From positions 1 to 35,686 of the IMG/VR virus record IMGVR_UViG_3300025120_000218: DNA of 35,686 bases; one strand, given 5' to 3'. The translations under genes and the position numbers were made by a program. The notes under the pieces were generated by a model. The model searched no databases, had not been told where the DNA came from, and worked only from the letters and a program-made list of their open reading frames with translations. Positions 14,501-35,686 of this stretch are shown here, in pieces. The first letter of the stretch is position 1, and every line of letters begins with the position of its first letter. Source of the stretch: a virus.

Positions 14501-17500
14501 AGACAGTTGTGATAGATTATGTGGGTAACATAGGGTTCATCCCGGAATTGGAAGACGGATCAACGGCAGACACCTACGGTAACTTTTATAAATTTGTTTC
14601 CGTGAGGTTAAACTCAATGGACAATGTGAACGATATCATACCATACTCGACTTACGTAGACAAGGATGATGCTATAGAAAGACCTGGTGATAAGGTTTAT
14701 GCTGATGCAGACAGTAAAGGACTGTGGCAGGTGTACGAGAAACAGGACCCGTATGTGTCTGGTGTAATATTATCCCCAGACAGCGAAACATCGGAGCAGG
14801 AGTTTGGTCACAGGATAGTGGCAAGGAATAACGGGAGAACTATTGTGGTATCTGCACCAGGTAAAGGGCAGGGAGAGATACACTTCCTATTCCGTTCGGA
14901 TGTAACTCCAGGAGCCTTGTTCCAAACACAGTCAACAGAGACCATGACAGAGAATGATGACAACACAAGCAGATTGGGTCAATCACTGTCCATGAGTACA
15001 GACGAGAACTTCGTTGTTGCGGGTGCACCATTCACCAACACCACAAGTTCCGATGGTAGCACACGATATATTAACAGCGGACTGGTAAAAATTTACCTTT
15101 GGGATCCAAATACATTCAAGTATTCATTACTGAACACACTGACACCACCCGAGGATGGATCAACAGCGGATAACCTGCAAGAACAGAACTTCGGTTCATC
15201 TCACAAGATCTCAGAACCGGGTGCAAGTTCGGTCAGAGACACATCGACAAAATATCTTTTCGTTGGAGCACCGGGATACAGTGATGGTACGGGCCGGGTT
15301 TACATGTACGAATGGGGCCTTGGTGTGGATGGATCAACATATGACACATGGACACAGAATTTAACGATTACGTCAGCCGATCCAGGAGCAGGAAAAAGAT
15401 TTGGACACAGAATAGAAGCCAATGACAATGGCGATATACTGGCTGTCAGTTCAACATCACCTGGACAGGCAGGGAAAGTGGAGATATACATTAGAAATTC
15501 ACAAGCAAATGATGGCAGTACAGATCATTCATTCACTCTTGCACAGACATTGACAGGCACGAGTGCAGATGGATCATCATTGAACACAGCGTTTGGCGAT
15601 TCTATGTCGATGGTAAGTGACGGTACAACACTGATCATTGGTGCCCCGGGAGTTGACGGCACGGAACAGATAGATGCAGGAGCAGTGTACTACTACAAAT
15701 GGAACGCAGACGGCTCAACTAACACATACACATTACAGCAGACACTGAATGCTCCAGATACACAAACAAACATGAGGTTTGGAACTAGCCTCGATACAAA
15801 TCATAACGGAACTAGATTAACGATAGGTGCTGAGAACTCTTCGACCCCCAGGGACATGAAAATTGATTCCGGTGAAACAACATTTGATTTACAGGATACG
15901 ATGTTCGTTGATCTTAACACAGGATCAGGGGCGACATTCACAGCCACTATGTACAACACAACATTTGTGATAGATGACAAGCTGATAACAAACAATGTGA
16001 CAGATGATGACAATTTTGGAAAAGGTGTGTGCGTCGTTGAAAACACTGTGTTTGTTGGAGCACCGAATGACGAAGGCATAGGAGGAACAGTTATCAATGA
16101 CGGAACAGTGGCCTGTTATGATCTAGCAGTAGCCGGAGAGTATGCATGGAAGAACATAGCTTCGGAAACGGCACTGATTGACATAGCAAAACTAGGACAG
16201 GTTTTTGAATTTGATAACGGAAGCAAACAGATCAGAGACCACTACGATCTTTATGATCCGGTCAAGGGACGTATTTTAGGTATTGCCGACAGGGAAATCA
16301 ACATCAAGGCACCGTGGGATCCGGCAGTGTACAACACAGGTCCAAATGCCAACACCAAGACATCATGGGCAGAGGAACACATAGGAGAAGTATGGTGGGA
16401 TCTATCGACAGTCAAATGGACATGGTATGAACAGGGAGATCAAGAATTCAAAACAAACAACTGGGGCAGAATCTTCCCAGGATCCAGCATAGACATATAC
16501 GAGTGGACGGAATCTACTATACTGCCTAGTGAGTGGTCCTCGAGAACCGGTACAGAGGAAGGGATCGCACAAGGAATATCAGGCACACCACGTACCATTG
16601 ACGATGAGCAGTACACGGTGATACAGAGATACAACACCAGACTAGATTCATTTGTGAATTACTATTACTACTGGGTGAAGAACAGAGTATCAGTGCCAAG
16701 GAACAGTGTTGTCCAAAGGAAGAACTCGGTAGGATTTGTGGCAAATCTTATAAAGAACCCATCCAGTACAGGAGCCAAATACTATTCGGTTACAGACACT
16801 AACAAACTCCTGTTGAACAATGTTAATAACCTGGGCGACGATAACATAGTGCTGAACATTGACATCAGGACCAACACCTTCGAAGGAGATTCACACTCCG
16901 TGTGGAAGTTGGCTAGAGAAGGAGACATCTCCTACAGGCCAGGAACACAAGTAGAGACACGTTGGTGGGATTCGCTGATAGGACAGAACGAGTCAGGAGA
17001 CCTTGTCCCGGACATCGGACTTCCTGTTAACGAACGATACGGGAACAAAATAAGACCGAGACAGAGTTGGTACGTGGACAGGTTCACAGCACTTAAAGAA
17101 ATCATAGACTACTCTAACACTGTTCTAAAGAAAAATCAATTGGCAGGAACGTTCAATCTTAGAAATCTAGATTCCAAGGAACCAGAACCAACTGCTGAGA
17201 GTTTGGAATGGGACACGACCATAGACACATATGCGGAACTGACGTACATTGACACAAGAGACCTATCAGGAACAGTTAAATTCCTAGTCAAGGCGGATGA
17301 GACAGCCAACGGATACTGGGCGATATACACATGGGATGGTACGGAATTCTCAAGGACACGATTACAGACTTACAAAACTTCTAGCTATTGGAGTTACACA
17401 GACTGGTATGGCACAGATCCTGATGTACATGGAATGCTCCATGGTGAAAACACGCCAATTGACAAGCAGGTCAAGTTCCAATACGAACTAGACACTTTAA

Positions 17501-20500
17501 ACCTTGCAATAGGTAAACACGTCAAAGTAACAAACGCAGATACAGGTGGGTGGAAATTGTTCATGAAGACTGCGACAGGTTGGCAAAATGTTGGAACAGA
17601 GAATGGGACTATAAGACTATCAACTAAACTGTATGACTACTCGCAGGATGCCATAGGATTTGCAGGTGAGGACACGTTTGACGACAATTTCTTTGACGAG
17701 GCACCTTCTATAGAGACTAGAAAAGTTTTGACAGCACTGAGGGATGACTTGTTCATTAATGATCTTGCTTTGGAATACAACACACTGTTCTTCACAGGTT
17801 TGAGGAAAGTATTATCTGAACAGACTTACGTTGATTGGATGTTTAAAACGTCATTCCTTAATGCCACAAGTTCTGTTAGACCATTGGACCAGAGAAAATC
17901 GTACACAACAGGAACAGACAAATGGATAGAAAGCTACATAAATGAAGTAAAACCTTTCCATAGTAAAATAAGAGAATACAGACTTGGATATACGGGCACG
18001 GACACACAGGATGGACTGTTCACTGACTTTGACAGTCCCACATTCTATGATGTGACGACAGGCAGGATTAGGGCACTTAACGTATCCAAGGACACAGCTA
18101 AACTGACTGAGTATCCTTGGCAGATGTGGAATGACTATCACAAGAAATACATTTCGTCTATTACAGTCACTAAAGGTGGATCCGGCTACACCACAGCCCC
18201 AACAGTCACGATAGTGGGAGGAACAGTGGGAGCCACAGGGCCTTTCCAGATATTGGCAACAAGTTCAAGAGGATCAACGTCAGGCACTTATGGTTACTTC
18301 TATCCACTGTTCAGTAGTGAAACACAGGCAAAGATATATGACACACAGAACGGTGGTGCAGGAACAACAAACATTTATAAATTTGATGGGTACACAGGCA
18401 CGTTCTATGGTCCGAGTACGATCATTACAGCACAGGCAACGATTTCGGGTGCATTCAAGATGTACACAACACCGACCACTACTGCGGCGACTGCCACGGC
18501 AACAGTTGTTGGTGGCACAGTAACAAAAGTTACTGTAACAGGTATTGGTGCAAACTACACTTCAACACCTATGGTGGTGTTAACCGGAGGTGCATCTGAT
18601 GGATCAACACCGTCTGACACTGCTAGAGCATATGCAAACCTGAACAATGACCTTGTGAGAGACATAGACACCACAATAAAATTTGATAGGGTTTCTAGCA
18701 CATCGAGAGTGGTCGATTGGACGGCATTGACCAGCTATGCATACGGACAGCTGATTAGATACAACAACCAATTATACAAAACAACAAGTGCCTTCACTGC
18801 AACAGCAAACTTCAACGATGGTGCAAACAAATTGTACAAGGTTTACGGAGATGAAACAGGTTTAACGGCCGCAGACAGGACCAAAGGTTTCTACACACCA
18901 GGAGCAGGGATGGCAGGCAACGAACTTTCACAAGTCATGTCGGGGGTTGACTACGGTGGAACAATGGTGACAGGATTGTTATTCTCACAAGAAGCAGGGT
19001 GGGACAAGGCAGGTTGGTATGACTTCCCATGGGACAACTATGGAGCCTCAAGGATCAAGTCATTCAGTGCAGACGGATTGACAGCAACATTTACAATTAC
19101 ACCTGCACCAGCCATAAGCGATGTCTATCAAGTTTATCTTACATCAGCCGACAGTACAAGGGTTAAAAGAACAGAGGTATTCAGAGGTGATGGATCGACA
19201 ACATCATTTACAATAGGTACTATACCGGCCGCAGGTACGTTAGTGGAGTTTATACCGTTCGATGATGATGGTGTTTTGACACCAACTGATGATAGGACTT
19301 TGGAGTCGATAATCAAAGGTGGACTTTTTGGTTCTGCATTAGGATCAGCGCCGAGCGATATTTTGCTAGAAGGTGATGATTTCATATCACCTGAAACCAG
19401 CTACGCACCGGAAGAAACTGTTCCGGGACAGCTATTTGATACACTGGACATAAAAGTTTACACATCTCCGGAGTCTGGAGTACCTTTCATATCTAGTAAA
19501 AATCACAGAGGTGACGCAACCACGACAACATTCAGCATTGGTGATTATCCAGGAACACTTGGTTCGGTTACAGTTTCAGTAAATGGTGTGGTTAAAAAAT
19601 TAACAACGGACTACACAGTCAGTGTTGCAAACAAAACAATAACATTTGGAACGGCGCCAGCAACCAACAGTGTTATAGCCACTAGAGTCTTTGCAATAAG
19701 TGGAGAAAATTACAGAGTACTTGACCAGTACACAGGTGACGGAAGCACAGTAACATTCACGACATCAACCAGGGGTGAGTTCAACTTGGACTCAACGGTG
19801 TCTGATATGTATATCACTATTGACGGCGTACCAACAACAGCGTTCACAACGACTACTACTGCCAATGCAGTCACAGTTACATTCAATTCAGCTCCAGTGG
19901 CCAATGCATTAGTACAGGTGGCAGGGTTCAACAAATCCACAACAAGCACAAGAAGTTATGCCAGCATCAGAAATGAAGCGGTGACATACGACGGATCAAC
20001 AAACAGATACACTTTGACCTATCCACCAGGATCGATAGGACCATTGTCGGGTCTGACTATCGTTGAGGCAAATGGGAAAGTACTGAGAGGCCCTGACGTG
20101 AGTTACTACATAGGAGACGGAACTACTACCCGATTTGATTTCAACGCACCATCAGGCTTAGGAGCAACAGTAGGCACCACAGATTCAACATCAGAGACAG
20201 CTGACACACATACGATAACTGCAGATGAGTCGCAAGTACCAGCACTGGGCGAAGATTCAACAATAGATCCTGCAAAGACCATCACGAGTGCATCGCAGAT
20301 ACAGGTACACATAAATGGGGTAGAGCAGATACTGAACACCCACTACACGGTCGATCTAGGAAATGGAATACACACAGCGGATGAAACAACAGAAGAAGCT
20401 GACACGACCACAACAACAGCGGACACGGCATCAGCACCAGACAGGGTGGTTTTTGTTACTGCACCGACAACTACAGATTTAATTGCTATAACAACAATAG

Positions 20501-21525
20501 CTGACAACCAGTACCACAACGTAGGGACGGATATAATAATAGATGTAGCACAGATGGCATCAGATGGTCAGACACTAACAGCTAATGATGTTCTGTCGGT
20601 AACAACATTCAATAACGCACTTGGAATGAAACTGAGAAGAGAGGTATTAGGAGGAGAACCTGATAACATCTTTAAACTGAGATTCGATCCACTAAATGCA
20701 GGATACACTTTCGTCTGGTTGAATGGAGTACAGCAGGTACAGAATTATGATTACACAATGACCGGCAACACTATAACTTTTGTTGGCAAGACGATATTAG
20801 GTTCAGACAGATTAGATGTGATGTACTTCGCGTTGGAATCTGCGATAGGTGCCACGGGATTCAGGATATTCAAGGACATGTTAAACAGAACATTCTACAA
20901 ACGTATCAGCAAAACAGCAACGACAGAATTAGTTGATGATCTGACCGATACAATAGACACACTGCAGGTCAAAGACGGAACTGCATTACCGGAACCCAAT
21001 GCCGAAAACAACTTGCCGGGTGTGGTCTTCATAGACAAGGAAAGGATAGAATATTTTACCAAGAACGGAAACACGTTGGGACAACTGAGACGTGGAACAC
21101 TTGGAACAGGAATTAAGGACCATAGCGATGGCACACTAGTGGTAGATGCCAGCGGATCTCAAACTATACCTTATGCGGACACAGTGTACACCAACACCTT
21201 CACAGGTGACGGTAGCACAACAGCGTTTGCACTATCACAAATCCCAGCCTCTGCTAGTGAGTTAGACATATTCATTGGTGGCCAACGATTGTTGCTTACT
21301 AGCGAGGATGGATCAACTATTAACTACTCTGTGAACGGATCTAGCACAACAGTGACTTTAAGCACTGTACCGGCTGTCGGAACACAGGTTAAAATCTTAC
21401 ACAAGAGAGGACAGGTATGGTACACAGCATTAGACGGCAATCCAGCAGATGGTAAAGGATTACAGGCGTCTACTACTAATCAGGCTAAATTCATAGCTAA
21501 CGAGCCAACAAACTCACCTGAATAA
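8500..21525 (+). CDS. Giant baseplate/tail structural protein (4341 aa)
   Basis: Very large virion protein directly after gp6, in the place where marine T4-like phages carry a gp7-like or giant wedge-associated protein. The N-terminus (LPAFYRTDTNQRFLSSTLDP) and the segment YMPPSPTKLGMYPKFKPEL (about residue 1000) match my memory of marine T4-like structural proteins. Visible modules in order: cupredoxin-like (about 197-290); chitin-binding-like (about 1662-1700); seven FG-GAP repeats (about 2096-2542); a Trp/Tyr-rich region (about 2590-2880); a GYTTAP repeat with an inserted module (3243-3327); a second chitin-binding-like module (about 3404-3450). From about 3540 on, fibre-like beta modules start with GDGSTT and contain VNGV..DYTV. 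The end (ANEPTNSPE) also looks family-typical. No signal peptide or membrane segment was seen. It probably connects the wedge to the fibres and may bind host glycans. The structural role is well supported; ligand binding is inferred. Confidence 0.8.
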   Translation: MADNPVNSSTNQEVVTQGNIELRRTVQHLPAFYRTDTNQRFLSSTLDPLIQKGNLERLDGYIGRQDAYTRQIKDRYLTATSRDRMSYQLEPTVTYTDKDTTSVNPEDQVKFTGTYDDYINQIKYFGGKVDNHDRLNKETVYGWNPAIDYDKLINYREYYWIPRGPNAIEIDSIGPSAVAEYNVVNLAKGAYNFGHRPGENNPIIKLYRGNTYKFNVNAKGHPFYIMTEPYKSQVAEDGSSSTLYSTGVVNNGADYGTVTFTVPLTGTPDTLYYQCGNHNAMYGILQIRTINTLAKINPDDDIVGVKTYSLRTLNLSNGMKIKFTPGQLETGSAYLNKEYYVEGVGESITLTDVENLITPATYATETTILYDEVEYDSRPYAKAYYIPDTKDYITIKRDSRDQNAWSRYNRWFHRSIIDETARINGYTPTLDEDTRAKRPIIEFDSGLALYNHGTVAKTSVTLFDTVTTDAFSDVVLQTGYIVDGVSLTEGMRVIFAADTDPIVKNKIYKVSFATAGDSSQVISLTEESDGVPADKDSVFVEFGTANQGKTFYYDSATATWKDAQQKTGVNQQPLFGMWDATHTSFDDTTKYPNSSFAGAKVFAFATTDTATTDTVLGIKVKYNTINNVGDIVFESDHTTGTFTYKSGSATVTMKLEEGHLHYTTGNETHNSRSAWVKRTNDSKQRVIRTFVVEQTEKQLFPIDFYKNSATLTDLELSVSVNGARKTLATDYTVVNGTTNKYVKFINELVVDDQIRIAGYSGADKVEDRGIYEVPENLGFNSLNQQLGSFTYGQILGHVRDIFDKNQDVTGTIPGVSNLRDKPDARLKGGSIHQHEAPLTPAVFGLIDQESNLISAMDFATKEYEKWYNAFLTHATGTAYEGVAADRVDEIITAITEGRNSSFPFFYEDMIGWGENVSTRSYTVLGESQTEYALDSQHNITTPSNRAVYVYLNSVQLILGTDYTFSTVDDSVAISTTLAEGDKVEIKDYTDTTGSYMPPSPTKLGMYPKFKPELFTDNTYTTSTAVIRKHDGSIIKAYGDERDDLILELEKRIYNNCKTAYDPTLLDIHDVSPSAFVSTEFTLQEINDIMGATFYTWAGRNNVQYINNTTFVEGSPFTYNYARSTDRINNQTFPGYWRGIYNYFYDTDSPHTRPWEMLGHSEKPTDWETLYGPAPYTSANDVLWDAIATEPGRYGKPEIKTYLPVDASGNLLDPIAVKLVENFDIPGRQSSWKFGDQSPAETAWRRSSSYPFAVMRVLALTKPAKFSANFFDPSRLSTNTAGNQIDTDTGIRRQLATAKYHLETETDQNTGAVTRYVTAGYQPFVVNYLISRNLDPTNFYYNKMKKLSVQLSYKLGGFTDKDNIKILTDSVSPGSTSGSKFIPDENYKILFRTSNPVQSFTYSGVLIEKNTDTTTDGSTLSGGYKVLGYSTTKPYFSFNYPVRTTTHSAIAVTGATVVKRYKTYQEDVQTIPYGYVFNTIQDVTDFLLGYGNWLEGQGFRFNKYSNELKETLNWENAVKEFLFWTTQEWAPGSAVTVSPAADGFELDTNNSIVGKLRNLAGDYSLLDAGGRKIDIREISTKRIGKTFDIGIKSDSIGLYNIALNTVQKEQILLFDNSTVFADIIFDPFTGFRQQRLKIVGWKTAGWNGDYYAPGFMFDAAQVSYWTANTDYKIGDTVEYQGKFYVAKINHNSTSVFDNANWMLKTEKPAPQLIPNFEYKISQFNDFYNLETNNFDESQQQLAQRLTGYQSRDYLENLFVNDVSQYKFYQGYIREKGTKNAIDKLTKAQYEKEDIELDLYPEWMIRTGNFGNTDSIENIQLVLKGDTITANPQSIELLDTSNDTIEYLRSASVAKNKLYYSPVDYTASTTFRRLDYSKEGVDRETAQFYKTAGYPQLSQVQHTAFNIADIQNLDMNLITSNDLVWIANKANQDWDVFRITNTGVTIAFLKPINDATQLEITLTGSHNLSAGTTNTLPDYFGIANSEETTLNGVYPVASTPDHKTVVIDYVGNIGFIPELEDGSTADTYGNFYKFVSVRLNSMDNVNDIIPYSTYVDKDDAIERPGDKVYADADSKGLWQVYEKQDPYVSGVILSPDSETSEQEFGHRIVARNNGRTIVVSAPGKGQGEIHFLFRSDVTPGALFQTQSTETMTENDDNTSRLGQSLSMSTDENFVVAGAPFTNTTSSDGSTRYINSGLVKIYLWDPNTFKYSLLNTLTPPEDGSTADNLQEQNFGSSHKISEPGASSVRDTSTKYLFVGAPGYSDGTGRVYMYEWGLGVDGSTYDTWTQNLTITSADPGAGKRFGHRIEANDNGDILAVSSTSPGQAGKVEIYIRNSQANDGSTDHSFTLAQTLTGTSADGSSLNTAFGDSMSMVSDGTTLIIGAPGVDGTEQIDAGAVYYYKWNADGSTNTYTLQQTLNAPDTQTNMRFGTSLDTNHNGTRLTIGAENSSTPRDMKIDSGETTFDLQDTMFVDLNTGSGATFTATMYNTTFVIDDKLITNNVTDDDNFGKGVCVVENTVFVGAPNDEGIGGTVINDGTVACYDLAVAGEYAWKNIASETALIDIAKLGQVFEFDNGSKQIRDHYDLYDPVKGRILGIADREINIKAPWDPAVYNTGPNANTKTSWAEEHIGEVWWDLSTVKWTWYEQGDQEFKTNNWGRIFPGSSIDIYEWTESTILPSEWSSRTGTEEGIAQGISGTPRTIDDEQYTVIQRYNTRLDSFVNYYYYWVKNRVSVPRNSVVQRKNSVGFVANLIKNPSSTGAKYYSVTDTNKLLLNNVNNLGDDNIVLNIDIRTNTFEGDSHSVWKLAREGDISYRPGTQVETRWWDSLIGQNESGDLVPDIGLPVNERYGNKIRPRQSWYVDRFTALKEIIDYSNTVLKKNQLAGTFNLRNLDSKEPEPTAESLEWDTTIDTYAELTYIDTRDLSGTVKFLVKADETANGYWAIYTWDGTEFSRTRLQTYKTSSYWSYTDWYGTDPDVHGMLHGENTPIDKQVKFQYELDTLNLAIGKHVKVTNADTGGWKLFMKTATGWQNVGTENGTIRLSTKLYDYSQDAIGFAGEDTFDDNFFDEAPSIETRKVLTALRDDLFINDLALEYNTLFFTGLRKVLSEQTYVDWMFKTSFLNATSSVRPLDQRKSYTTGTDKWIESYINEVKPFHSKIREYRLGYTGTDTQDGLFTDFDSPTFYDVTTGRIRALNVSKDTAKLTEYPWQMWNDYHKKYISSITVTKGGSGYTTAPTVTIVGGTVGATGPFQILATSSRGSTSGTYGYFYPLFSSETQAKIYDTQNGGAGTTNIYKFDGYTGTFYGPSTIITAQATISGAFKMYTTPTTTAATATATVVGGTVTKVTVTGIGANYTSTPMVVLTGGASDGSTPSDTARAYANLNNDLVRDIDTTIKFDRVSSTSRVVDWTALTSYAYGQLIRYNNQLYKTTSAFTATANFNDGANKLYKVYGDETGLTAADRTKGFYTPGAGMAGNELSQVMSGVDYGGTMVTGLLFSQEAGWDKAGWYDFPWDNYGASRIKSFSADGLTATFTITPAPAISDVYQVYLTSADSTRVKRTEVFRGDGSTTSFTIGTIPAAGTLVEFIPFDDDGVLTPTDDRTLESIIKGGLFGSALGSAPSDILLEGDDFISPETSYAPEETVPGQLFDTLDIKVYTSPESGVPFISSKNHRGDATTTTFSIGDYPGTLGSVTVSVNGVVKKLTTDYTVSVANKTITFGTAPATNSVIATRVFAISGENYRVLDQYTGDGSTVTFTTSTRGEFNLDSTVSDMYITIDGVPTTAFTTTTTANAVTVTFNSAPVANALVQVAGFNKSTTSTRSYASIRNEAVTYDGSTNRYTLTYPPGSIGPLSGLTIVEANGKVLRGPDVSYYIGDGTTTRFDFNAPSGLGATVGTTDSTSETADTHTITADESQVPALGEDSTIDPAKTITSASQIQVHINGVEQILNTHYTVDLGNGIHTADETTEEADTTTTTADTASAPDRVVFVTAPTTTDLIAITTIADNQYHNVGTDIIIDVAQMASDGQTLTANDVLSVTTFNNALGMKLRREVLGGEPDNIFKLRFDPLNAGYTFVWLNGVQQVQNYDYTMTGNTITFVGKTILGSDRLDVMYFALESAIGATGFRIFKDMLNRTFYKRISKTATTELVDDLTDTIDTLQVKDGTALPEPNAENNLPGVVFIDKERIEYFTKNGNTLGQLRRGTLGTGIKDHSDGTLVVDASGSQTIPYADTVYTNTFTGDGSTTAFALSQIPASASELDIFIGGQRLLLTSEDGSTINYSVNGSSTTVTLSTVPAVGTQVKILHKRGQVWYTALDGNPADGKGLQASTTNQAKFIANEPTNSPE
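9088..9369 (+). other. Cupredoxin-like domain within the giant tail protein
   Basis: Residues about 197-290 read like a small Greek-key copper protein. They contain IIKLYRGNTYKFNV, then GHPFYI with His221, then GTVTFTVP, then YYQCGNHNAMYG with Cys275, His278 and Met281. A His followed by CxxHxxM is the usual layout of a type-1-like copper site. The ligands appear complete, but copper binding is inferred. Confidence 0.65.
13483..13602 (+). other. Chitin-binding-like (CBM5/12-type) module 1 of the giant protein
   Basis: Residues about 1662-1700 read SYWTANTDYKIGDTVEYQG, then KFYVAK and a closing NANW. The pattern W..(x)..Y..GD.V.Y.G..Y.A...(x)..W is that of small carbohydrate-binding modules. 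In phage tails such modules may be structural only. Confidence 0.5.
14785..16125 (+). other. Seven-repeat FG-GAP beta-propeller of the giant protein
   Basis: Seven repeats, each starting FG or LG and followed by a (V/I)(x)(G/S)AP or similar strand: FGHRIVARNNG, LGQSLSMSTDE, FGSSHKISEPG, FGHRIEANDNG, FGDSMSMVSDG, FGTSLDTNHNG and FGKGVCVVENT. GAP follows in repeats 2, 3, 5 and 7, SAP in repeat 1, and weaker forms (VSST, IGAEN) in 4 and 6. Seven is the canonical count for an integrin-alpha-like propeller. The type resembles bacterial FG-GAP_2 repeats. Confidence 0.75.
18226..18480 (+). other. About 85-residue module inserted in a GYTTAP-type repeat pair
   Basis: Two related repeats, ITVTKGGSGYTTAPTVTIVGG and (downstream) VTVTGIGANYTSTPMVVLTGG, are separated by a segment of about 85 residues. 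It contains YFYPLFSSETQAKIYD, YKFDGYTGTFYGPST and a short Thr/Ala linker. It looks like an independent module placed inside an otherwise tandem pair. Confidence 0.45.
18709..18849 (+). other. Chitin-binding-like module 2 of the giant protein
   Basis: Residues about 3404-3450 read VVDWTALTSYAYGQLIRYNN, then QLYKTTSAF. This repeats the W..(x)..Y..G..I.Y.N.LY..T layout of module 1. It is a weaker match because the Asp of the GD.V motif is Gln here. Confidence 0.4.
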
Positions 21526-26619: not shown

Positions 26620-27277
26620 ATCATATTACCACGGACAGCAAGGCGAATGTTTCCTGAGAATAGAAAAACATTTCACAGAGATCAAACACGAGTTCGACTC
26701 ACAACCCAACAAGATATTCTTAGATCCAGAAGACTTCTCAGACAGCGTAAGGGGACTTCCGGATGACTTCGATGACAAGTCAGGGGACTATGTGAATGGA
26801 CAGTGGAAGGCACTGGGAATACAGTCAGGGGAACACGAGGGACAATCGTTCAATGACTATCCCATGCTGTATTCGATACTGAGAAAATTCCCATACAAGA
26901 CCAATGTGGCAATAATGACTGTTGGGCCAGACACAAAGATTGGTAACCACACGGATAACGAAGGTGGCTGGAGATATCAGATGTGTTTGGATGACGGGGG
27001 AGGAGACCAGAGTGGTATGTATGTTATGAACCTAGAAACTAGGAAACAGGAATTGATGACCTGGAAGACAGGTGAAGCGTTCATTTTCCAACCAGACATA
27101 CAGGTACACAATGGTTTCAACAACAATCCAGGTGAGAGAACCACGTTATTAATTGACTTTTACAAAGAATCACTGTACACTAAAGAGAAGTTCGAACAAT
27201 ATTACCAACACTATTCGGAATGTTTTGAAGGGTTGGAAAATCTAGTGGATGTGTATGAATCAAGGAAACAAAAATAA
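26609..27277 (+). CDS. 2OG-Fe(II) oxygenase, Asp/Asn beta-hydroxylase-like
   Basis: Likely iron- and 2-oxoglutarate-dependent hydroxylase acting on protein side chains. NVAIMTVGPDTKIGNHTDNE provides the HxD pair (His114, Asp116). TGEAFIFQPDIQVHNGFNN provides the distal His167, and NPGERTTLLIDFY provides Arg177 for 2-oxoglutarate. This arrangement fits the aspartyl/asparaginyl beta-hydroxylase family. The length (222 residues) suits a lone catalytic domain, and no membrane anchor is seen. The gene begins inside the end of the Hint adhesin gene (11-base overlap) and overlaps the SDR gene by 29 bases, so it is probably translationally coupled. This position suggests the substrate may be the adhesin or a fibre, but that is inference. 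A host target is equally possible. Confidence 0.75.
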   Translation: MLDKSYYHGQQGECFLRIEKHFTEIKHEFDSQPNKIFLDPEDFSDSVRGLPDDFDDKSGDYVNGQWKALGIQSGEHEGQSFNDYPMLYSILRKFPYKTNVAIMTVGPDTKIGNHTDNEGGWRYQMCLDDGGGDQSGMYVMNLETRKQELMTWKTGEAFIFQPDIQVHNGFNNNPGERTTLLIDFYKESLYTKEKFEQYYQHYSECFEGLENLVDVYESRKQK

Positions 27278-27830
27278 AATAGCAATCATAGGGCACACCA
27301 AAGGGATAGGTAAGGCCATAGCGGACCTGTATCGGAAAAAGAATTACACAGTCGTTGGGTTGAGCAGTAGCAACGGATACGATTTACAATGTAGTCAAGT
27401 AGAGATAATGGAACAGCTGGATGACTGCCAATTGATCGTACTCAATGCATATGTTGGCAGAGGCCAAATGACCTTGTTGAAAAGAATATACGGCAAATTC
27501 GTTTTCGAGGACAAGAAAGTTGCAGTGATCACAAGCACGTCAGGTACTCCTATTGGAATGGATGAGGATTTACAAAATACGGAATACACAGACTACTGCG
27601 AGAACAAGAAAAATCTAATAGATTACATAGAAGAGCTACAACAAGAATTATTAAACAAACCTTTGTCAGTTTATGATGTCTGTCCGGATGTGGTGGACAC
27701 GGACATGACAAAGGGCTTGTGGGAAGACCTACCAAAATTAAGAGCAAACGAAGTTGCAGAAGCAGTGCGTTACTGTTTTGAATCAACATTCAACGTCAAC
27801 AAGATAGTGATGCAAAAAAATGTTAGTTAG
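27249..27830 (+). CDS. Short-chain dehydrogenase/reductase (SDR) family protein
   Basis: NAD(P)-dependent oxidoreductase of the SDR family. The N-terminus has the cofactor motif IAIIGHTKGIGKAIA (Gly15, Gly19, Gly21). LIVLNAYVG stands where classical enzymes have NNAG. TSTSG (Ser96, Ser98) is followed by a YxxxK pair (Tyr116, Lys120), and DVCPDVVDTDM matches the PGxVxT-type segment. At 193 residues it is shorter than classical SDRs (about 250), with the missing length mostly before the Ser, yet the catalytic residues are kept. Either ATG 27249 or ATG 27255 could be the start; both lie within the end of the oxygenase gene. It overlaps the next gene by 11 bases. The substrate is unknown; it could reduce or oxidise a sugar or a product of the neighbouring oxygenase. 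Confidence 0.7.
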   Translation: MCMNQGNKNKIAIIGHTKGIGKAIADLYRKKNYTVVGLSSSNGYDLQCSQVEIMEQLDDCQLIVLNAYVGRGQMTLLKRIYGKFVFEDKKVAVITSTSGTPIGMDEDLQNTEYTDYCENKKNLIDYIEELQQELLNKPLSVYDVCPDVVDTDMTKGLWEDLPKLRANEVAEAVRYCFESTFNVNKIVMQKNVS

Positions 27831-28284
27831 AGCCTGGGACAGAGACAAGGATTATGACACACTGGTCAAGTGGTGGACACAGTGGGAGTTTGGCACGGTG
27901 CCCAAGGAATGCCTGCCACCTGCAGGCATAATGGTGGAAGTTGACGGAGAGCCTGTGTGTGCTGGAGGGTTATACATAGGTGAGGGAACACAGTTCGCTT
28001 TCATGGAATGGATAGTGACGGACAAGACAGCAGAATCAAAGAATGTGCATAAATGTCTAAAATTGTGTATCGACGGCATAATGAAATTGGCAAAAGACAA
28101 GGGAATGAAACTGGTGTACACCGCTACAAAGGAACAAGCTCTGCACAAAAGGTATCAAAAATACCACGATATGGTGCTTACGGAGAGCAACGTCAAGACT
28201 TTTCTGAGGGATCTGGACGGATCGTATTCCGAGGATTTAACCTGGATATCAGACGATGAGCAGATAGAAGAACATAATAAATAA
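27820..28284 (+). CDS. GNAT-like acetyltransferase (154 aa)
   Basis: Probable acyl-CoA-dependent N-acetyltransferase of the divergent GNAT type seen in marine phages. Features are a start like a GNAT beta1 (LVRAWDRDKDYDTLVKWW), LPPAGIMVEVDGEPVCAGGLY, FAFMEWIVTDKTAESKNVHK, then a helix IMKLAKDKGMKLVYTAT and LHKRYQKY. The cofactor loop (usually Q/RxxGxG/A) is weak: SKNVHKCLK stands in its place, so catalysis is uncertain. Its ATG lies inside the end of the SDR gene (11-base overlap), which makes it the third enzyme of a coupled cassette. The last 20 residues are acidic. The target is unknown; a fibre amine or an amino sugar is a reasonable guess. An inactive GNAT fold is also possible. Confidence 0.55.
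   Translation: MLVRAWDRDKDYDTLVKWWTQWEFGTVPKECLPPAGIMVEVDGEPVCAGGLYIGEGTQFAFMEWIVTDKTAESKNVHKCLKLCIDGIMKLAKDKGMKLVYTATKEQALHKRYQKYHDMVLTESNVKTFLRDLDGSYSEDLTWISDDEQIEEHNK
28276..28283 (+). promoter_or_regulatory. Late-promoter candidate before the 58-aa gene
   Basis: AATAAATA overlaps the end of the GNAT-like gene, 20 bases before the next ATG. Unlike most fibre genes here, the following start also has a good Shine-Dalgarno. Confidence 0.3.
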
Positions 28285-31159: not shown

Positions 31160-31166
31160 ACAGTTA
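31148..31166 (+). repeat. 19-bp perfect palindrome over the -10 box and start codon
   Basis: TAACTGTATAATACAGTTA is a perfect inverted repeat with 9-base arms around one central A. It contains the whole TATAAT box and ends on the A of the ATG at 31166. It could be an operator for a dimeric repressor. As RNA it would form at most an 8-bp stem with a 3-base loop. Confidence 0.6.
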
Positions 31167-31483
31167 TGGATATTGGCAATATTAAGAAACAATCGGACCT
31201 CAACTTCGAGGTAGCACAGGCTAAGAAGAACGCACTGGAGAAACTGCGTTCAAGACAGCTGATGGCCTACAACGAGAGATTGTTCACGGCGGACGTTGAT
31301 ACCATTAACCTAGTGAGCACACTCAAACAACACAACAAAGATTTCTACATGTTAGATGTTAATGACAATCCCTGTCATGTCAAGGATCCGGATGATTTCC
31401 TAAACAAATTAATAGAAAGAAACCAGGAAACACTGAACTCGTACCAACAGCTACATCAAGATCTCGCCAAAAAGAGAAAATAA
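31166..31483 (+). CDS. Conserved-type phage protein of unknown function (105 aa)
   Basis: Small helical protein with no named function. The N-terminal half is charged and coiled-coil-like (QSDLNFEVAQAKKNALEKLR, then SRQLMAYNERLF). A middle segment VDTINLVSTLKQHNKDFYML is followed by DVNDNPCHVKDPDDFLNKLI and a basic C-terminal helix ending AKKRK. The layout 'helix, then D-x-N-x-N-P-x-x-V, then D-F' matches a small protein family I remember from marine T4-like phages, without known role. It is the first gene after the promoter/palindrome and its stop overlaps the first glycosyltransferase-like gene (TAATG). Its start has no Shine-Dalgarno, consistent with leaderless initiation. Confidence 0.65.
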   Translation: MDIGNIKKQSDLNFEVAQAKKNALEKLRSRQLMAYNERLFTADVDTINLVSTLKQHNKDFYMLDVNDNPCHVKDPDDFLNKLIERNQETLNSYQQLHQDLAKKRK

Positions 31484-32235
31484 TGACAACCGGTGTACTG
31501 ATGTACTGTTTTGACACTCCTGAGGTCAACTATCACAGGTTGGCAGAACGTTGTGTGGCACAGGTACGTAAATATCTCAAACTGGAAATCACTATCGTCA
31601 CCAATCTAGAGACATACAAGAAATTCAAACCCTTGGGCATGATCAACTACAAGTTGGTTGAAGTCAAGACCACCAACACAAGGCCTTACAGGGGCAAAAG
31701 TGTGGCATGGTACAACAAGGAACGTGCCCTGGCATATGAACATTCGCCCTACGACACGACCATACTGATGGACTGTGATTATTTCGTGTTCTCTTGCACA
31801 CTGTTGGAATTGGCAAACACAAAGTTTGACATGATGTTGCACGATCGGGTGCATGACCTTACAGGCAAAGACATGATATTAGGCAAAGACGAGAGCACAC
31901 TGCCTTTGGTATGGGCGACAGTGACACTGTTCAAGAAGAGTGCGAACACCGAGTCGATATTCGCCATGATAAGACATGTACAGGAATATTATCCACACTA
32001 CAGGAATCTCTACAGGATACGTTACCCAAACTACAGGAACGATTATGCTTTCGCAATAGCACTGCACCAATTGAATCTGGGAAGCCGCATACCCACACCC
32101 ATGACCATGTTGTCATCCACTGTAGATGTGATAGACAGTGATGAGGACGGTATTGTTTTCAAGTACAATGATAACATAAATTTCACCACAGGGCAGGATG
32201 TACACGTGATGGACAAGGAGTGGTGCAATGGATAG
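31483..32235 (+). CDS. Glycosyltransferase-like protein 1 (GT-A type, 250 aa)
   Basis: Likely nucleotide-sugar-dependent glycosyltransferase. TTGVLMYCFDTPEVNYHRLA and the following VAQVRKYLKLEITIVTN look like a Rossmann-like GT-A start. TTILMDCDYFVFS supplies a DxD-type metal/sugar-nucleotide motif (Asp97-Cys98-Asp99). The middle LPLVWATVTLFKKS and the later DYAFAIALHQLNL resemble an acceptor-side region. No membrane segment is visible, so it acts in the cytoplasm. It overlaps the preceding gene by one base and the next gene by eight. Two further GT-like genes follow, so it belongs to a glycosylation group. Donor and acceptor are unknown; a phage structural protein, host envelope glycan or DNA are all possible. 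The class call is motif-based. Confidence 0.6.
   Translation: MTTGVLMYCFDTPEVNYHRLAERCVAQVRKYLKLEITIVTNLETYKKFKPLGMINYKLVEVKTTNTRPYRGKSVAWYNKERALAYEHSPYDTTILMDCDYFVFSCTLLELANTKFDMMLHDRVHDLTGKDMILGKDESTLPLVWATVTLFKKSANTESIFAMIRHVQEYYPHYRNLYRIRYPNYRNDYAFAIALHQLNLGSRIPTPMTMLSSTVDVIDSDEDGIVFKYNDNINFTTGQDVHVMDKEWCNG
32215..32220 (+). promoter_or_regulatory. Shine-Dalgarno AAGGAG for glycosyltransferase-like gene 2
   Basis: AAGGAG sits inside the end of the preceding gene, 7 bases before the ATG at 32228. It fixes that start. Confidence 0.65.
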
Positions 32236-33040
32236 GGGATATGTATGGTTCGCACTGAACAACTCAACAACAGATTACATTGAGCTCAGTAGGGAACTGG
32301 CAAAGAGCATAAAGAAATTCAACAAGCACAACAAGGTATGTGTGATAACAGACAAACCGGTCAAGGACGGACTGTTTGATTTTGTTAAGGTATTGAAGCA
32401 AGATGACAGTGCAGATCAGGAATGGAAACTTAACAACGAATACAAAGTATTCCACTGCACCCCCTTCACGCACACCATAAAACTCACAGCCGATATGTTA
32501 TTCACACAGAACACTGACTGGTGGTGGAACTATCTATGGCAACATGATCAAGTGTTCTCATACCATTGCAGGAACTACCAGGACGAAGTTATAAAACACA
32601 GTTTCTATAGGAAGCTTTTTGCAAGGAATGATCTTCCCGATGTGTATGATGGTTTGCACTACTTCAGGAAGAGCACAAAAGCAAAACATTTCTATGACTT
32701 GTGTGAGACAATCACAAAAAACTGGAAACAAGTCAAAGAAACAGTCCTCGTGGACTGTCATGACCAGCAACCAACAACAGACGTGGTGTATGCCCTGGCC
32801 AACAAGATACAGGATCCTTTACAGCAGGACAAGATAGATTATGAGTGGTTCAAGTTCATGCACAACAAACAGCACATAAACAAAATAGGCAAGAGATTCG
32901 AAAATGACAACTACCTTTATCCCATGAAAGTAGTAAACAAATTGTACATGGGTGGATACAGACAGCACAGGGTAGTACACTACCACAACAAGAAAATGAT
33001 AGGAGAATTAAGTGAACGAACTTTTGAAAGCACTCGCTAA
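32228..33040 (+). CDS. Glycosyltransferase-like protein 2 (270 aa)
   Basis: Distant relative of the previous protein with the same plan: GYVWFALNNSTTDYIELSRE, KKFNKHNKVCVITDKPVKDG, then TIKLTADMLFTQ where the first protein has ILMDCDYFV. Only the second Asp of the DxD is kept (Asp89, in Thr-Ala-Asp). Catalysis may therefore be altered, or it may be a partner subunit. The centre is rich in Trp and Tyr (TDWWWNYLWQHDQVFSYH). LPDVYDGLHYFRKSTKAKHF is followed by VDCHDQQPTTDVVYALA, which resembles a GT acceptor region. The C-terminal half is basic. It overlaps the gene before it by eight bases and the 103-aa gene after it by 29. It belongs to the same group as glycosyltransferase-like proteins 1 and 3, but with lower certainty. 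Confidence 0.5.
   Translation: MDRGYVWFALNNSTTDYIELSRELAKSIKKFNKHNKVCVITDKPVKDGLFDFVKVLKQDDSADQEWKLNNEYKVFHCTPFTHTIKLTADMLFTQNTDWWWNYLWQHDQVFSYHCRNYQDEVIKHSFYRKLFARNDLPDVYDGLHYFRKSTKAKHFYDLCETITKNWKQVKETVLVDCHDQQPTTDVVYALANKIQDPLQQDKIDYEWFKFMHNKQHINKIGKRFENDNYLYPMKVVNKLYMGGYRQHRVVHYHNKKMIGELSERTFESTR
33001..33005 (+). promoter_or_regulatory. Shine-Dalgarno AGGAG supporting a GTG start
   Basis: AGGAG lies 6 bases before the GTG at 33012, within the end of the previous gene. It is the reason to accept GTG as the start of the 103-aa protein. Confidence 0.65.
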
Positions 33041-33323
33041 TCTACCACCTGTTGAAAAGAAAATACACACTGTGACCATACAGGGAAAGACCATTGAAGT
33101 CAGTCTCGGAAAAAAATTAGAAATCATGAAAGCCACGAACGGTGAAGATGCATTTATGTTAGATGGGGATAAAATAATTCTAAAACCTGTGGAAAAAAAA
33201 ACAAAACGTAGATTGCCTATTCTTAAAAAAGATAAAACGGGTGGTCATTTCCATAACGGTGATCCTTTCTGGTTAGAAACAATAGCAGAGGAGGGTTACA
33301 TATGGCAGACAGAATCAGAGTAA
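33012..33323 (+). CDS. Small basic protein of unknown function (103 aa)
   Basis: Short protein starting at a GTG with a good Shine-Dalgarno. The first half is a small beta-rich unit (HTVTIQGKTIEVSLGKKLEI, MLDGDKIILKPV). A Lys/Arg stretch (EKKTKRRLPILKKDK) follows, then a conserved-looking end GGHFHNGDPFWLETIAEEGY with IW. Codons and base content differ from the neighbours: it is richer in A+T, roughly 30-38% G+C over 33081-33240. A run of nine A (33193-33201) is present. It lies between two glycosyltransferase-like genes and overlaps both, so it may be an adaptor or an acceptor of the modifying enzymes. That role is inference; I know of no function for it. Confidence 0.6.
   Translation: MNELLKALANLPPVEKKIHTVTIQGKTIEVSLGKKLEIMKATNGEDAFMLDGDKIILKPVEKKTKRRLPILKKDKTGGHFHNGDPFWLETIAEEGYIWQTESE
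33289..33294 (+). promoter_or_regulatory. Consensus Shine-Dalgarno AGGAGG for glycosyltransferase-like gene 3
   Basis: Perfect AGGAGG, 7 bases before the ATG at 33302 and inside the preceding gene. It is the strongest ribosome binding site in the window. Confidence 0.7.
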
Positions 33324-34207
33324 GTGATCTAGATTTCGTGTACATCAGTTACGCTGAACCCAACAGGGAAGAGAACTGGGCAGACCTCAAGAACAAGGTG
33401 CCATGGGCAAAACGTGTGGACGGTGTAAAAGGATTTGATTCGGCACACAAGGCCGCGGCCGAGACAGCAGAGACAGATTTCTTCATAAGCGTGGATGGTG
33501 ATAACATCATAGATGAAACTTTCCTATTGCAAACATTAGACTGGACAAAGACAGATAGGAAAGCAGTACACAGATGGAGAGCCAAGAACAACATCAACGG
33601 TCTTGTGTATGGCAATGGGGGGTTAGTTGGATGGGACAAAGAAATCTGCCTAAACATGAAGACACACGAGAATGCAGAAACAGAAGAAAATAGAATGGAT
33701 TTCTGTTGGGGAATGCCTCATGAAAATCTACACAACTGTTATTCCACCACAGTCATCAATGCAACTTCACAACAGGCCTTCATAGCAGGTTACAGGGAAG
33801 GTGTCAAGATGAGCACAGAAAAAGGCAAACCTATTACGGCAAAAAATTACAATAAATCTATCTGGAAGAACAATCTCAGTATATTGAGTACATGGTGCAC
33901 AATAGGTGCAGACATTGACAATGGCAAGTATGCCATGCTGGGTGCAAGGATGGGTTGTTTCTACACTGTTATAGAACCAAGCAATGAATTTTTTAGGATC
34001 AGTGATTTGACCGAACTAGAAAAATATTTTGCAGAATTGGCAGTAGAAAATGGCAACATCGATGAGGAGTTACAGTTGTTCGGAAACAGTCTAAGACAAC
34101 AACTGGACATACCGATCGCAGAATACTCTGAGGACGACAGCAAGTTCTATAGGTTTGTGATGCCACAACACAGGAACAAAGGAGTACAAGATCGTGAGTA
34201 CCAGTGA
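33302..34207 (+). CDS. Glycosyltransferase-like protein 3 (301 aa)
   Basis: GT-A-type protein of a family I associate with marine T4-like phages. It opens with LDFVYISYAEPNREENWADL, then KNKVPWAKRVDGVKGFDSAH. ETDFFISVDGDNIIDETFL carries a clear DxD motif (Asp65-Gly66-Asp67) for metal and sugar nucleotide. GLVYGNGGLVGWDKEICLNM resembles the acceptor-side loop, and MPHENLHNCYSTTVINAT suggests a beta-rich core. Beyond about residue 190 the protein is helical and mostly charged. It starts from a consensus Shine-Dalgarno inside the 103-aa gene and overlaps the radical SAM gene by 14 bases, so translation of the two is probably coupled. The substrate is unknown; co-occurrence with a radical SAM enzyme suggests modification of a sugar or a peptide. 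Class moderately certain. Confidence 0.65.
   Translation: MADRIRVSDLDFVYISYAEPNREENWADLKNKVPWAKRVDGVKGFDSAHKAAAETAETDFFISVDGDNIIDETFLLQTLDWTKTDRKAVHRWRAKNNINGLVYGNGGLVGWDKEICLNMKTHENAETEENRMDFCWGMPHENLHNCYSTTVINATSQQAFIAGYREGVKMSTEKGKPITAKNYNKSIWKNNLSILSTWCTIGADIDNGKYAMLGARMGCFYTVIEPSNEFFRISDLTELEKYFAELAVENGNIDEELQLFGNSLRQQLDIPIAEYSEDDSKFYRFVMPQHRNKGVQDREYQ
34178..34184 (+). promoter_or_regulatory. Shine-Dalgarno AAAGGAG supporting the GTG start of the radical SAM gene
   Basis: AAAGGAG lies 9 bases before the GTG at 34194, within the end of glycosyltransferase-like gene 3. It supports GTG as the real start. Confidence 0.6.
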
Positions 34208-35564
34208 TTACAAGCAAGACGCACTGAAGGCAAAAGAGAAGTTGGCCACGGTATCACCTACCATGTGCCTGGCCAAGTGGAATCAGACATCACTGCACCT
34301 GCCCACAGGACTGACGAACTCATGCTACCATCCACCACTGCACAAGATCGACGCACAAGCAGTCAAACGTAATCCCGCCGCACTGCACAACACACAAGAG
34401 AAAATGAATCAACGACAACAAATGCTAGAAGGAGAGCAACCTGAGGGTTGTTCCTACTGTTGGAACATGGAGAAGACTGGGGAGATGTCAGACAGGCACT
34501 ACAGATCCGGTGAACCATGGGCCATGCAGGACTTCGAAGACATCAGAAAGAATCCAATAGACGAACATTGGACACCGAGGTACGTGGAAGTCAACTTTAA
34601 CAACGCTTGTAATCTAAAGTGTAGTTACTGTTCTCCACAGTTCTCGACAACGTGGGGCAAGGAGATTGACAGGTATGGCCAATATCCCACATCTCCTCCC
34701 CACAACGCACCAGAACACTTCCAGGGAAGACGCAAACCCATACCCAACAGGGAGGACAATCCCTATGTCACCGCATTCTGGAAATGGTGGCCCACGCTGT
34801 ACAAGAATCTAAAGCACTTCCGTATGACGGGCGGGGAACCCATGATGGATGTGAACACGTACAAGGTGTTCCAGTACATAATGGACCATCCCAAGAAGGA
34901 TCTTCACCTGAACATAACATCAAACATGTGTCCCGCAGACAAGAAGCTGAAGGACAAGTACTTCAACATGGCCAAGAACATATGCATGGATGAGAAAGTG
35001 GAACACCTGATGCAGTTCGTCAGCGTAGATGCCTGGGGCAAACGAGCAGAGTACATACGTAATGGACTGGACTTCAACTACATGATGGACAACGTGGAGG
35101 AGTTCCTGGAGCGTATTCCTGTGCGTAACTCGATAACATTCATATGCACATACAACAACCTGAGTATAACAAGTATGGACAAACTGTTGGAGAAGATACT
35201 GGAACTGCGTACAAAGTACAGCAAGACCTATCAGAGGGTATGGTTAGATGTGCCCGTGCTGAGGCAACCCGCATGGCAACAGATCACACTGCTACCAGAG
35301 TCGTACCAGGCCATACACGAGAGCAACATAGAGTACATGCAGAAAAATTCCGGAGAAGAAAACGGCCTACACATATTCAAGGACTTCGAGATCCAGAAGA
35401 TGCAACGGAATCTCGCATACTGGAAAGAAAACGCGGACGCAAGTACGCAACAAAAAAAGAACTTCTACGCATTTTTTAACGAACACGATAGAAGACGTGG
35501 TACAAACTTCCTGAACATCTTCCCCGAGATGGAGGAATTTTACATGGAGTGTAAGAACACATGA
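34194..35564 (+). CDS. Radical SAM protein (456 aa)
   Basis: Radical S-adenosylmethionine enzyme. VEVNFNNACNLKCSYCSPQF holds the CxxxCxxC cluster (Cys139, Cys143, Cys146) that binds a 4Fe-4S centre, and FRMTGGEPMMD supplies the SAM-binding GGEP (213-216). LHLNITSNM and the downstream FVSVDAW match later strands of the radical SAM barrel. Before the core, a conserved-looking N-terminal part (MCLAKWNQTSLHLPTGLTNS, CYHPPLHKID, GCSYCWNME) has Cys25, Cys44, Cys86 and Cys89. These may bind metal or form part of the substrate pocket. No C-terminal SPASM-like Cys cluster is visible. It fits the class called twitch-domain radical SAM proteins in marine T4-like phages; the reaction is unknown. The next gene starts in a 4-base ATGA overlap and encodes a relative. 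Confidence 0.85.
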   Translation: MSTSDYKQDALKAKEKLATVSPTMCLAKWNQTSLHLPTGLTNSCYHPPLHKIDAQAVKRNPAALHNTQEKMNQRQQMLEGEQPEGCSYCWNMEKTGEMSDRHYRSGEPWAMQDFEDIRKNPIDEHWTPRYVEVNFNNACNLKCSYCSPQFSTTWGKEIDRYGQYPTSPPHNAPEHFQGRRKPIPNREDNPYVTAFWKWWPTLYKNLKHFRMTGGEPMMDVNTYKVFQYIMDHPKKDLHLNITSNMCPADKKLKDKYFNMAKNICMDEKVEHLMQFVSVDAWGKRAEYIRNGLDFNYMMDNVEEFLERIPVRNSITFICTYNNLSITSMDKLLEKILELRTKYSKTYQRVWLDVPVLRQPAWQQITLLPESYQAIHESNIEYMQKNSGEENGLHIFKDFEIQKMQRNLAYWKENADASTQQKKNFYAFFNEHDRRRGTNFLNIFPEMEEFYMECKNT

Positions 35565-35686
35565 ATGATCTAGAATACAAAAAACAAATATTAGATACAA
35601 AGAGTGCAAGTTTCTGTGGAGCCAAGTGGTACAATGCTACCATATGGTTGGGCAGTGGTATGACCACAAGTTGTCACCACCCACTT
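35561..35686 (+). CDS. Second radical SAM-family protein, N-terminal fragment (cut by window end)
   Basis: A reading frame opens at ATG 35561, overlapping the TGA of the previous gene as ATGA, and stays open to the last base (42 residues). Residues 18-42 read FCGAKWYNATIWLGSGMTTS then CHHPL. This matches the N-terminal segment of the preceding radical SAM protein (MCLAKWNQTSLHLPTGLTNS then CYHPPL): same Cys, Ala-Lys-Trp, Thr-Ser-Cys and His-Pro. The gene is therefore very likely a tandem paralogue. The CxxxCxxC core lies beyond the window, so catalytic competence cannot be checked. Coupled translation is likely from the overlap. Confidence 0.75.
   Translation, partial: MNDLEYKKQILDTKSASFCGAKWYNATIWLGSGMTTSCHHPL

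Follow-up and report, generated by a model that had tools for sequence, protein, structure and literature searches.

An operon of glycosyltransferase-like and N-terminal-twitch radical SAM genes is conserved in marine T4-like phages and shared in part with Bdellovibrionota

The viral record IMGVR_UViG_3300025120_000218 (35,686 bases; hereafter the window, i.e., the whole stretch of DNA analysed) ends in a run of overlapping genes encoding three glycosyltransferase (GT)-like proteins, GTa, GTb, and GTc, and two radical S-adenosylmethionine (SAM) enzymes, rSAM1 and rSAM2. Together with a 105-aa protein gene at its start and a small "slot" protein gene between GTb and GTc, this run is the promoter-proximal half of one operon; the window stops before the operon's end, and relatives continue to rSAM3, rSAM4, and rSAM5. 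Gene order is conserved across marine T4-like phages. In our judgement there is about an even chance that the operon encodes a phage pathway for the assembly and radical-based tailoring of a surface glycan, either on the host envelope or on the virion.

Results

Conservation of the operon across marine T4-like phages

Relatives were collected from viral contigs with rSAM1 as bait (79 loci, confirmed by tblastn) or with GTc as bait, so that each locus set tests the other partner. The order GTa-GTb-GTc was kept in 68/68 loci holding all three genes, down to ~26–45% protein identity, and an rSAM gene followed GTc in all 66 loci in which the contig continued (L087 and L092 stop at GTc). The genomic co-occurrence of the three GT families with rSAM genes, proposed as a check by an annotation made earlier from the sequence alone (the first-pass annotation), was thereby borne out. 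GTb, GTc, and rSAM1 to rSAM5 were found in order in 34 loci, with up to 12 matches to the N_Twi_rSAM family (see below) per phage contig. Exceptions among the loci collected with rSAM1 were four with a carbamoyltransferase but no GTc, and three rSAM arrays without these GTs nearby. The region 3′ of rSAM5 held an SGNH-like gene, a carbamoyltransferase (26 loci), and in some loci an NAD epimerase and a DegT aminotransferase.

All six coding regions from GTa to rSAM2 were real according to open reading frame (ORF) analysis, and the successive overlaps between GTa, GTb, the 103-aa slot protein, GTc, rSAM1, and rSAM2, whose presence the first-pass annotation had noted, measured 8, 29, 22, 14, and 4 nucleotides (nt). 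Overlaps recurred in 67–98% of orthologous pairs for GTa/GTb/slot/GTc/rSAM1 and for rSAM2 to rSAM5, in 48% for rSAM1/rSAM2, where an SGNH gene is sometimes inserted, and in 85% of 47 loci for the 105-aa gene and GTa. The strong Shine-Dalgarno sites claimed earlier were found for four of the six genes (5–6 nt at GTb, the 103-aa gene, GTc, and rSAM1; a score of ≥5 is reached by chance at 5% of positions) but not for rSAM2, which has a weak site (GGAG), nor for GTa, which has none.

The assignment of the module to marine T4-like phages was supported by a T4-type baseplate region in the window and by Gp23 on 3/14 partial relative contigs, but proved too narrow, as chromosomes of Bdellovibrionota carry parts of it as well. 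An A-type iron–sulfur (Fe-S) carrier was encoded on 3/14 contigs, including those with 12 rSAM matches. A DNA similarity search gave no match among cultured phages, and neither did tblastn with rSAM1 or GTc as query. In a metagenome-assembled genome (MAG) of Rickettsiales, one phage-like contig (G005:C6; L108-L109) carried the GTa-GTb-GTc block followed by well over ten rSAM genes of several types.

Radical SAM enzymes of the operon

All rSAMs of the operon were assigned to N_Twi_rSAM (NCBIfam NF033640, twitch domain-containing radical SAM protein; curated cut-off 170 bits), with scores of 331.8 bits for rSAM1 and of 299.5, 415.3, 321.6, and 364.6 bits for orthologues of rSAM2 to rSAM5, respectively. 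The rSAM2 stub in the window matched the profile weakly and rSAM1 with an E-value of 1e-5; its full orthologue (L006:11368-12711, 299.5 bits) keeps the CX3CX2C motif, which confirmed that the second gene has a radical SAM core. The tandem pair noted earlier is thus real and of one family, but represents only the first two of five rSAM genes in relatives.

In rSAM1, four twitch cysteines (25/44/86/89) precede the core CX3CX2C cysteines (139/143/146), and all seven were present in 72/72 orthologues; likewise, the N-terminal twitch and CX3CX2C cysteines were kept in 100% of the aligned orthologues of each group, rSAM1 to rSAM5. The Pfam SPASM domain of rSAM3 was placed at residues 33–97, i.e., N-terminally. 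rSAM1 and rSAM2 share 34% identity, and in a tree built with a quick method (deep forks weak, some forks open, long branches) rSAM1 to rSAM5 formed five old, separate lineages, rSAM1 grouping with chromosomal Bdellovibrionota proteins and rSAM4 being phage-only within the sample. Recent tandem duplication as the origin of the series was ruled out by this tree, within the same limits. The AlphaFold2 (AF2) model of rSAM1 (predicted local distance difference test, pLDDT, 91) was closest in fold to SkfB, BlsE, SuiB, and anSMEcpe (Z 13–14, 211–233 residues, root-mean-square deviation (rmsd) 3.3–3.9). Compared with peptide-maturing SPASM enzymes, the twitch/SPASM cysteines lie N-terminally and not C-terminally, and no precursor-like gene was identified in the operon.

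Glycosyltransferases of the operon

GTa and GTb belong to one family (hhalign 99.2%) and are putative GT8-like glycosyltransferases of the GT-A type, as judged from profile comparison and motifs. Neither had a significant Pfam GT8 match; GTb matched glycogenin (GT8) weakly (E 0.036), and 8/36 GTa members matched DUF5672 weakly. Pfam matches to DASH_Spc34 and MIT_C were dismissed as chance, being below cut-off and differing between members. The D-x-D motif of GTa (residues 97–99) is invariant in the GTa alignment. Among GTb proteins an intact D-x-D occurs only in distant members; in the window's clade the first Asp is replaced by Glu, Thr, or Ala and the last Asp is kept (TAD in the window).

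GTc had no significant sequence match in Pfam, NCBIfam, or the PDB (sequence-profile searches of the PDB returned chance matches only), and no relation to GTa or GTb was found by hhalign. Its AF2 model (pLDDT 89) consists of an N-terminal GT-A domain (about residues 4–153) and a helical C-terminal half. Glycosyltransferases were the top Foldseek matches, with SunS as the best (E 2e-4), and VIA-align gave a Z of 10.3 to B4GALNT1 (141 aa aligned, rmsd 2.9) along with matches to many other enzymes of the GT-A type; nucleotidyltransferases, which have this general fold too, scored Z 8–9, and that a family is missing from the VIA-align lists was not counted as evidence. A DxD motif (VDGDN or IDGDN, once VDADN) was present in 31/31 aligned members and is placed at a strand end in the model. 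GTc is regarded as a family of its own, predicted to adopt a GT-A fold and invariant in its DxD, and the earlier description of three GT-like proteins applies to it by predicted fold but not by sequence kinship with GTa and GTb. Unrelated folds, named in the first-pass annotation as grounds for refutation, were not seen among the three, as judged from a model for GTc and from profile comparison for GTa and GTb.

Independent support for GTc as a glycosyltransferase came from a 1220-aa protein (L147, 3895-7557) in which a GTc domain is joined to two GT2 domains; this protein was also considered as a second rSAM-GTc fusion, but had no rSAM profile match and was not counted as such. On the minus strand of six further loci (L043-L046, L049, L074), proteins of 1014–1284 aa with several weak GTc-like segments are encoded beside a carbamoyltransferase and are possibly multi-domain GTc enzymes.

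Counterparts in Bdellovibrionota

The GTc/rSAM set is not confined to phages, and parts of it occur in Bdellovibrionota chromosomes. Within a phylum set of 291 genomes drawn around a Bdellovibrionia MAG, GTc was present in 19 genomes. In 12 of these, N_Twi rSAMs above the cut-off were mapped relative to GTc, and one was located ≤10 kb from 13/17 GTc loci, with ~1.2 expected under random placement; as the 17 loci were merged by hand and the expectation is rough, the P value of this linkage can only be read as very small. Some of these clusters adjoin genes of ordinary polysaccharide glycosyltransferases. On one chromosome (L142), an rSAM1-type gene (576 bits) comes directly after GTc, and the two have GT2 genes, amine-oxidase genes, and a weak PMT_2 match as neighbours. 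At another locus (L136), a single 635-aa ORF encodes a GTc domain fused to a radical SAM/SPASM enzyme. In a Bdellovibrionia MAG (G001:C1, ~745–775 kb; L104-L105), more than ten N_Twi rSAM genes were found in ~30 kb, intermixed with a gene of the Asp/Arg beta-hydroxylase family and further uncharacterised genes. Misbinning of contigs is possible in MAGs; several of the GTc/rSAM stretches lie on long contigs amid ordinary chromosomal genes.

One contig of the Bdellovibrionota set (G169:C21; L131) carries chromosomal-looking genes and a GTc-GTc fusion, followed by a phage-type block (structural gene, a gene of the c18 family to which the 105-aa protein belongs, GTa, GTb, GTc, and rSAMs); a prophage, a tailocin, or a chimeric contig are candidate readings.

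Gene content of the window

The window carries a T4-type baseplate region, including hub/lysozyme and wedge proteins, a 4341-aa ORF, tail-fibre-like genes, and finally the GT/rSAM operon, whose three GT-like genes, 103-aa gene, and two rSAM genes were confirmed at the positions assigned to them earlier (Table 1). Its G+C content is 44%, which is high for a SAR11 phage.

Table 1 Genes of the operon within the window
Gene product	Position	Strand	Evidence or remark
105-aa protein, c7/c18 family, first cistron of the operon, tail-fibre-associated position	31166..31483	+	overlap with GTa of 1 nt
GTa, putative GT8-like glycosyltransferase (GT-A type), 250 aa	31483..32235	+	alignment, hhalign to GTb
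GTb, paralogue of GTa, 270 aa	32228..33040	+	weak glycogenin (GT8) profile match, hhalign to GTa
slot protein of 103 aa, rapidly evolving, encoded between GTb and GTc	33012..33323	+	alignment with 4 invariant positions
GTc, family without annotation, 301 aa, predicted GT-A domain	33302..34207	+	AF2 model, Foldseek, VIA-align
rSAM1, N_Twi_rSAM radical SAM enzyme, 456 aa	34194..35564	+	NF033640 profile, AF2 model
rSAM2, 5′ end (42 codons), runs off the window	35561..35686	+	AKW...SCHHP twitch motif, self-match to rSAM1

Orthologues of the 105-aa protein precede GTa in all phage groups. We take this family to be similar to tail-fibre assembly proteins of the DUF4376 kind, a likeness that no Pfam match backs. 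The slot between GTb and GTc was always filled by a small, fast-evolving protein; other phage groups have different proteins of ~150–446 aa there, and those of different groups do not look homologous (L043, L062, L086, L088, L092). One class of slot proteins ends in a DPHF...YT.K.FDKY motif. The slot protein is a candidate acceptor or adaptor.

Further upstream, the 4341-aa ORF (8500-21525, plus strand) has the gene for a baseplate wedge protein on one side and the fibre-like genes on the other, and may occupy the VrlC position of pelagimyophages. In many relatives the last fibre gene is preceded by a conserved gene pair (clusters 15 and 13), whose products are a protein resembling short-chain dehydrogenases/reductases (27249-27830, plus strand; with the motif GHTRGIGKA in relatives) and an acetyltransferase-like small protein (27820-28284, plus strand; phrog_17252).

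Discussion

Relation to described systems

Radical SAM cassettes in such phages have been reported before. The host recognition cluster of pelagimyophages comprises a hypervariable tail-fibre region and glycosyltransferases, and radical SAM cassettes were a difference between two genomes (PMC7029224); the setting resembles that of the window in its marine T4-like phages, tail-fibre region, GTs, and cassettes, whereas a conserved operon, the GTc family, the number and type of rSAMs, and bacterial counterparts are not described in the passages considered. Likewise, 12 radical SAM genes were reported, along with genes for Fe-S assembly, in a T4-like genome of environmental origin (PMC5332604), which is comparable to the present contigs in combining many rSAM genes and an A-type Fe-S carrier in one phage; the passages considered describe neither a linkage to glycosyltransferases nor an operon. 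Relative to the open-licence literature searched, the conserved operon, the GTc family, and the bacterial link appear to be new.

With N_Twi_rSAM, the five phage enzymes share an N-terminal twitch/SPASM domain followed by the CX3CX2C core, at scores far above the cut-off; that family is named by domain only, whereas here five old lineages stand in one operon. GTa and GTb putatively share the GT-A type and DxD with glycogenin (GT8), by profile only, the motif being eroded in GTb. GTc shares, in its model, the GT-A fold and DxD with B4GALNT1 and the PBCV-1 capsid glycosyltransferase, but has no significant sequence match in Pfam, NCBIfam, or the PDB.

Proposed function and alternatives

The first-pass annotation had suggested remodelling of a sugar or peptide on the virion or host surface. 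This is still the best class of explanation, and the gene neighbourhood favours a surface glycan. The analysis shows how the operon is built, the families of its genes, intact catalytic motifs, the predicted fold class, and the conserved linkage; activities, order of steps, sugar substrate, chemistry, acceptor, and timing are what we infer. During infection, GTa, GTb, and GTc would transfer sugars from nucleotide donors, and the five rSAMs would each reduce SAM at the CX3CX2C cluster and abstract hydrogen from a carbon of a sugar or sugar-bearing acceptor, with the four-Cys twitch cluster helping to bring a dehydrogenation, epimerisation, dehydration, or bond formation to its end. Amino and carbamoyl groups would be attached by enzymes encoded downstream, and the product may mask or remodel the host envelope (superinfection exclusion, receptor change) or decorate the tail fibres encoded just upstream.

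The surface-glycan reading is drawn from the conserved gene order, the start/stop overlaps, the rSAM cysteines kept throughout, and the predicted GT-A fold and DxD of GTc; from the genes for a carbamoyltransferase, an NAD epimerase, and a DegT aminotransferase that follow in orthologous phages; and from the bacterial side, i.e., the L142 cluster, the linkage at 13/17 cellular loci, and the L136 fusion. It also draws on two phage neighbourhoods. In the cultured Vibrio phage K566 (OZ196521; L149, 152829-177755), two GT8 genes and one weak match to GT4 are interspersed among four N_Twi-like rSAMs beside pagP and lpxC, and these lipid A genes point toward the host envelope; a distant GTb homologue sits in a glycan operon of Synechococcus phage ACG-2014f.

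Several observations weigh against this reading. In the window's clade the DxD of GTb is without its first Asp, the genes for sugar-nucleotide enzymes are not part of the coupled block and differ between phages, and the open-licence literature searched yielded no characterised member of N_Twi_rSAM, GTa, GTb, or GTc. The operon adjoins tail-fibre genes, and a virion acceptor fits equally well. Furthermore, the rSAM1 fold matches tie in Z between peptide maturases (SkfB, SuiB, anSME) and nucleotide-sugar enzymes (BlsE, DesII), so that we only infer a sugar as the rSAM substrate.

The main alternative, which we regard as rather unlikely, is modification of a virion protein: the rSAMs would alter side chains of a structural protein, be it a tail fibre, the slot protein, or the 105-aa protein, to which the GTs would add sugars, so that the particle would bear a radical-modified glycoprotein. 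This would suit the contiguity with tail-fibre genes, the coupling of the 105-aa first cistron to GTa, and a slot that always carries a small, fast-evolving protein, as well as the nearness of rSAM1 to SkfB and SuiB, the best Foldseek match of GTc (SunS is a peptide S-glycosyltransferase), and the Asp/Arg beta-hydroxylase family protein within the Bdellovibrionota rSAM array. However, the slot protein varies between phage groups while the enzymes stay conserved, GTc/rSAM sets occur in bacterial chromosomes without tail genes, and the peptide-maturase folds are matched in score by nucleotide-sugar enzymes.

The resemblance of the rSAM folds to maturases of ribosomally synthesised and post-translationally modified peptides (RiPPs), that of GTc to SunS/ThuS, and the small ORFs in the operon would also accommodate a ribosomally made (RiPP-like or glycocin-like) or other small natural product directed against competitors; we consider this improbable, as the operon lacks a short precursor gene of Cys-rich or repeat type, neither a transporter nor a protease was seen in it, and the 103-aa protein has only four invariant residues. 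Hypermodification of phage DNA is more improbable still: phage GTs often glucosylate modified bases and rSAMs take part in some hypermodification pathways, but no member of the thymidylate synthase/dCMP hydroxymethylase family was found in the 14 relative contigs (partial records), the operon neighbours tail-fibre genes, and bacterial polysaccharide loci contain the same genes. Least probable of all is a role in host metabolism such as heme synthesis, which is suggested by the abundance of viral ahbD calls, labelled speculative by the survey itself (PMC9301287), but is at odds with N_Twi_rSAM as the best family (300–415 bits for rSAM1 to rSAM5), with N-terminal instead of C-terminal SPASM/twitch cysteines, and with neighbours that are GTs, no heme genes being recognised nearby.

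Going beyond the surface-glycan reading of this operon, we tentatively suggest, while holding it to be doubtful, that marine T4-like phages and Bdellovibrionota have in common an undescribed type of pathway, in which an N-terminal-twitch rSAM series and GTc tailor a surface glycan as a unit, with sugar chemistry beyond that of ordinary nucleotide-sugar enzymes, and which has been passed between phages and bacteria.

Conclusions

Glycosyltransferases are common in phage genomes, and stray viral "radical SAM" genes are listed in surveys with no function given. Here the two belong to one conserved operon with a set gene order, intact active sites, the newly recognised family GTc with its predicted GT-A fold, and a counterpart in bacterial chromosomes. 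The large orphan family N_Twi_rSAM thereby gains a functional setting and a group of partners open to testing, and phage K566 is a practical cultured test system for the rSAM/GT8 block. Many viral rSAM genes now filed as auxiliary metabolism (e.g., ahbD) may instead encode surface-tailoring enzymes.

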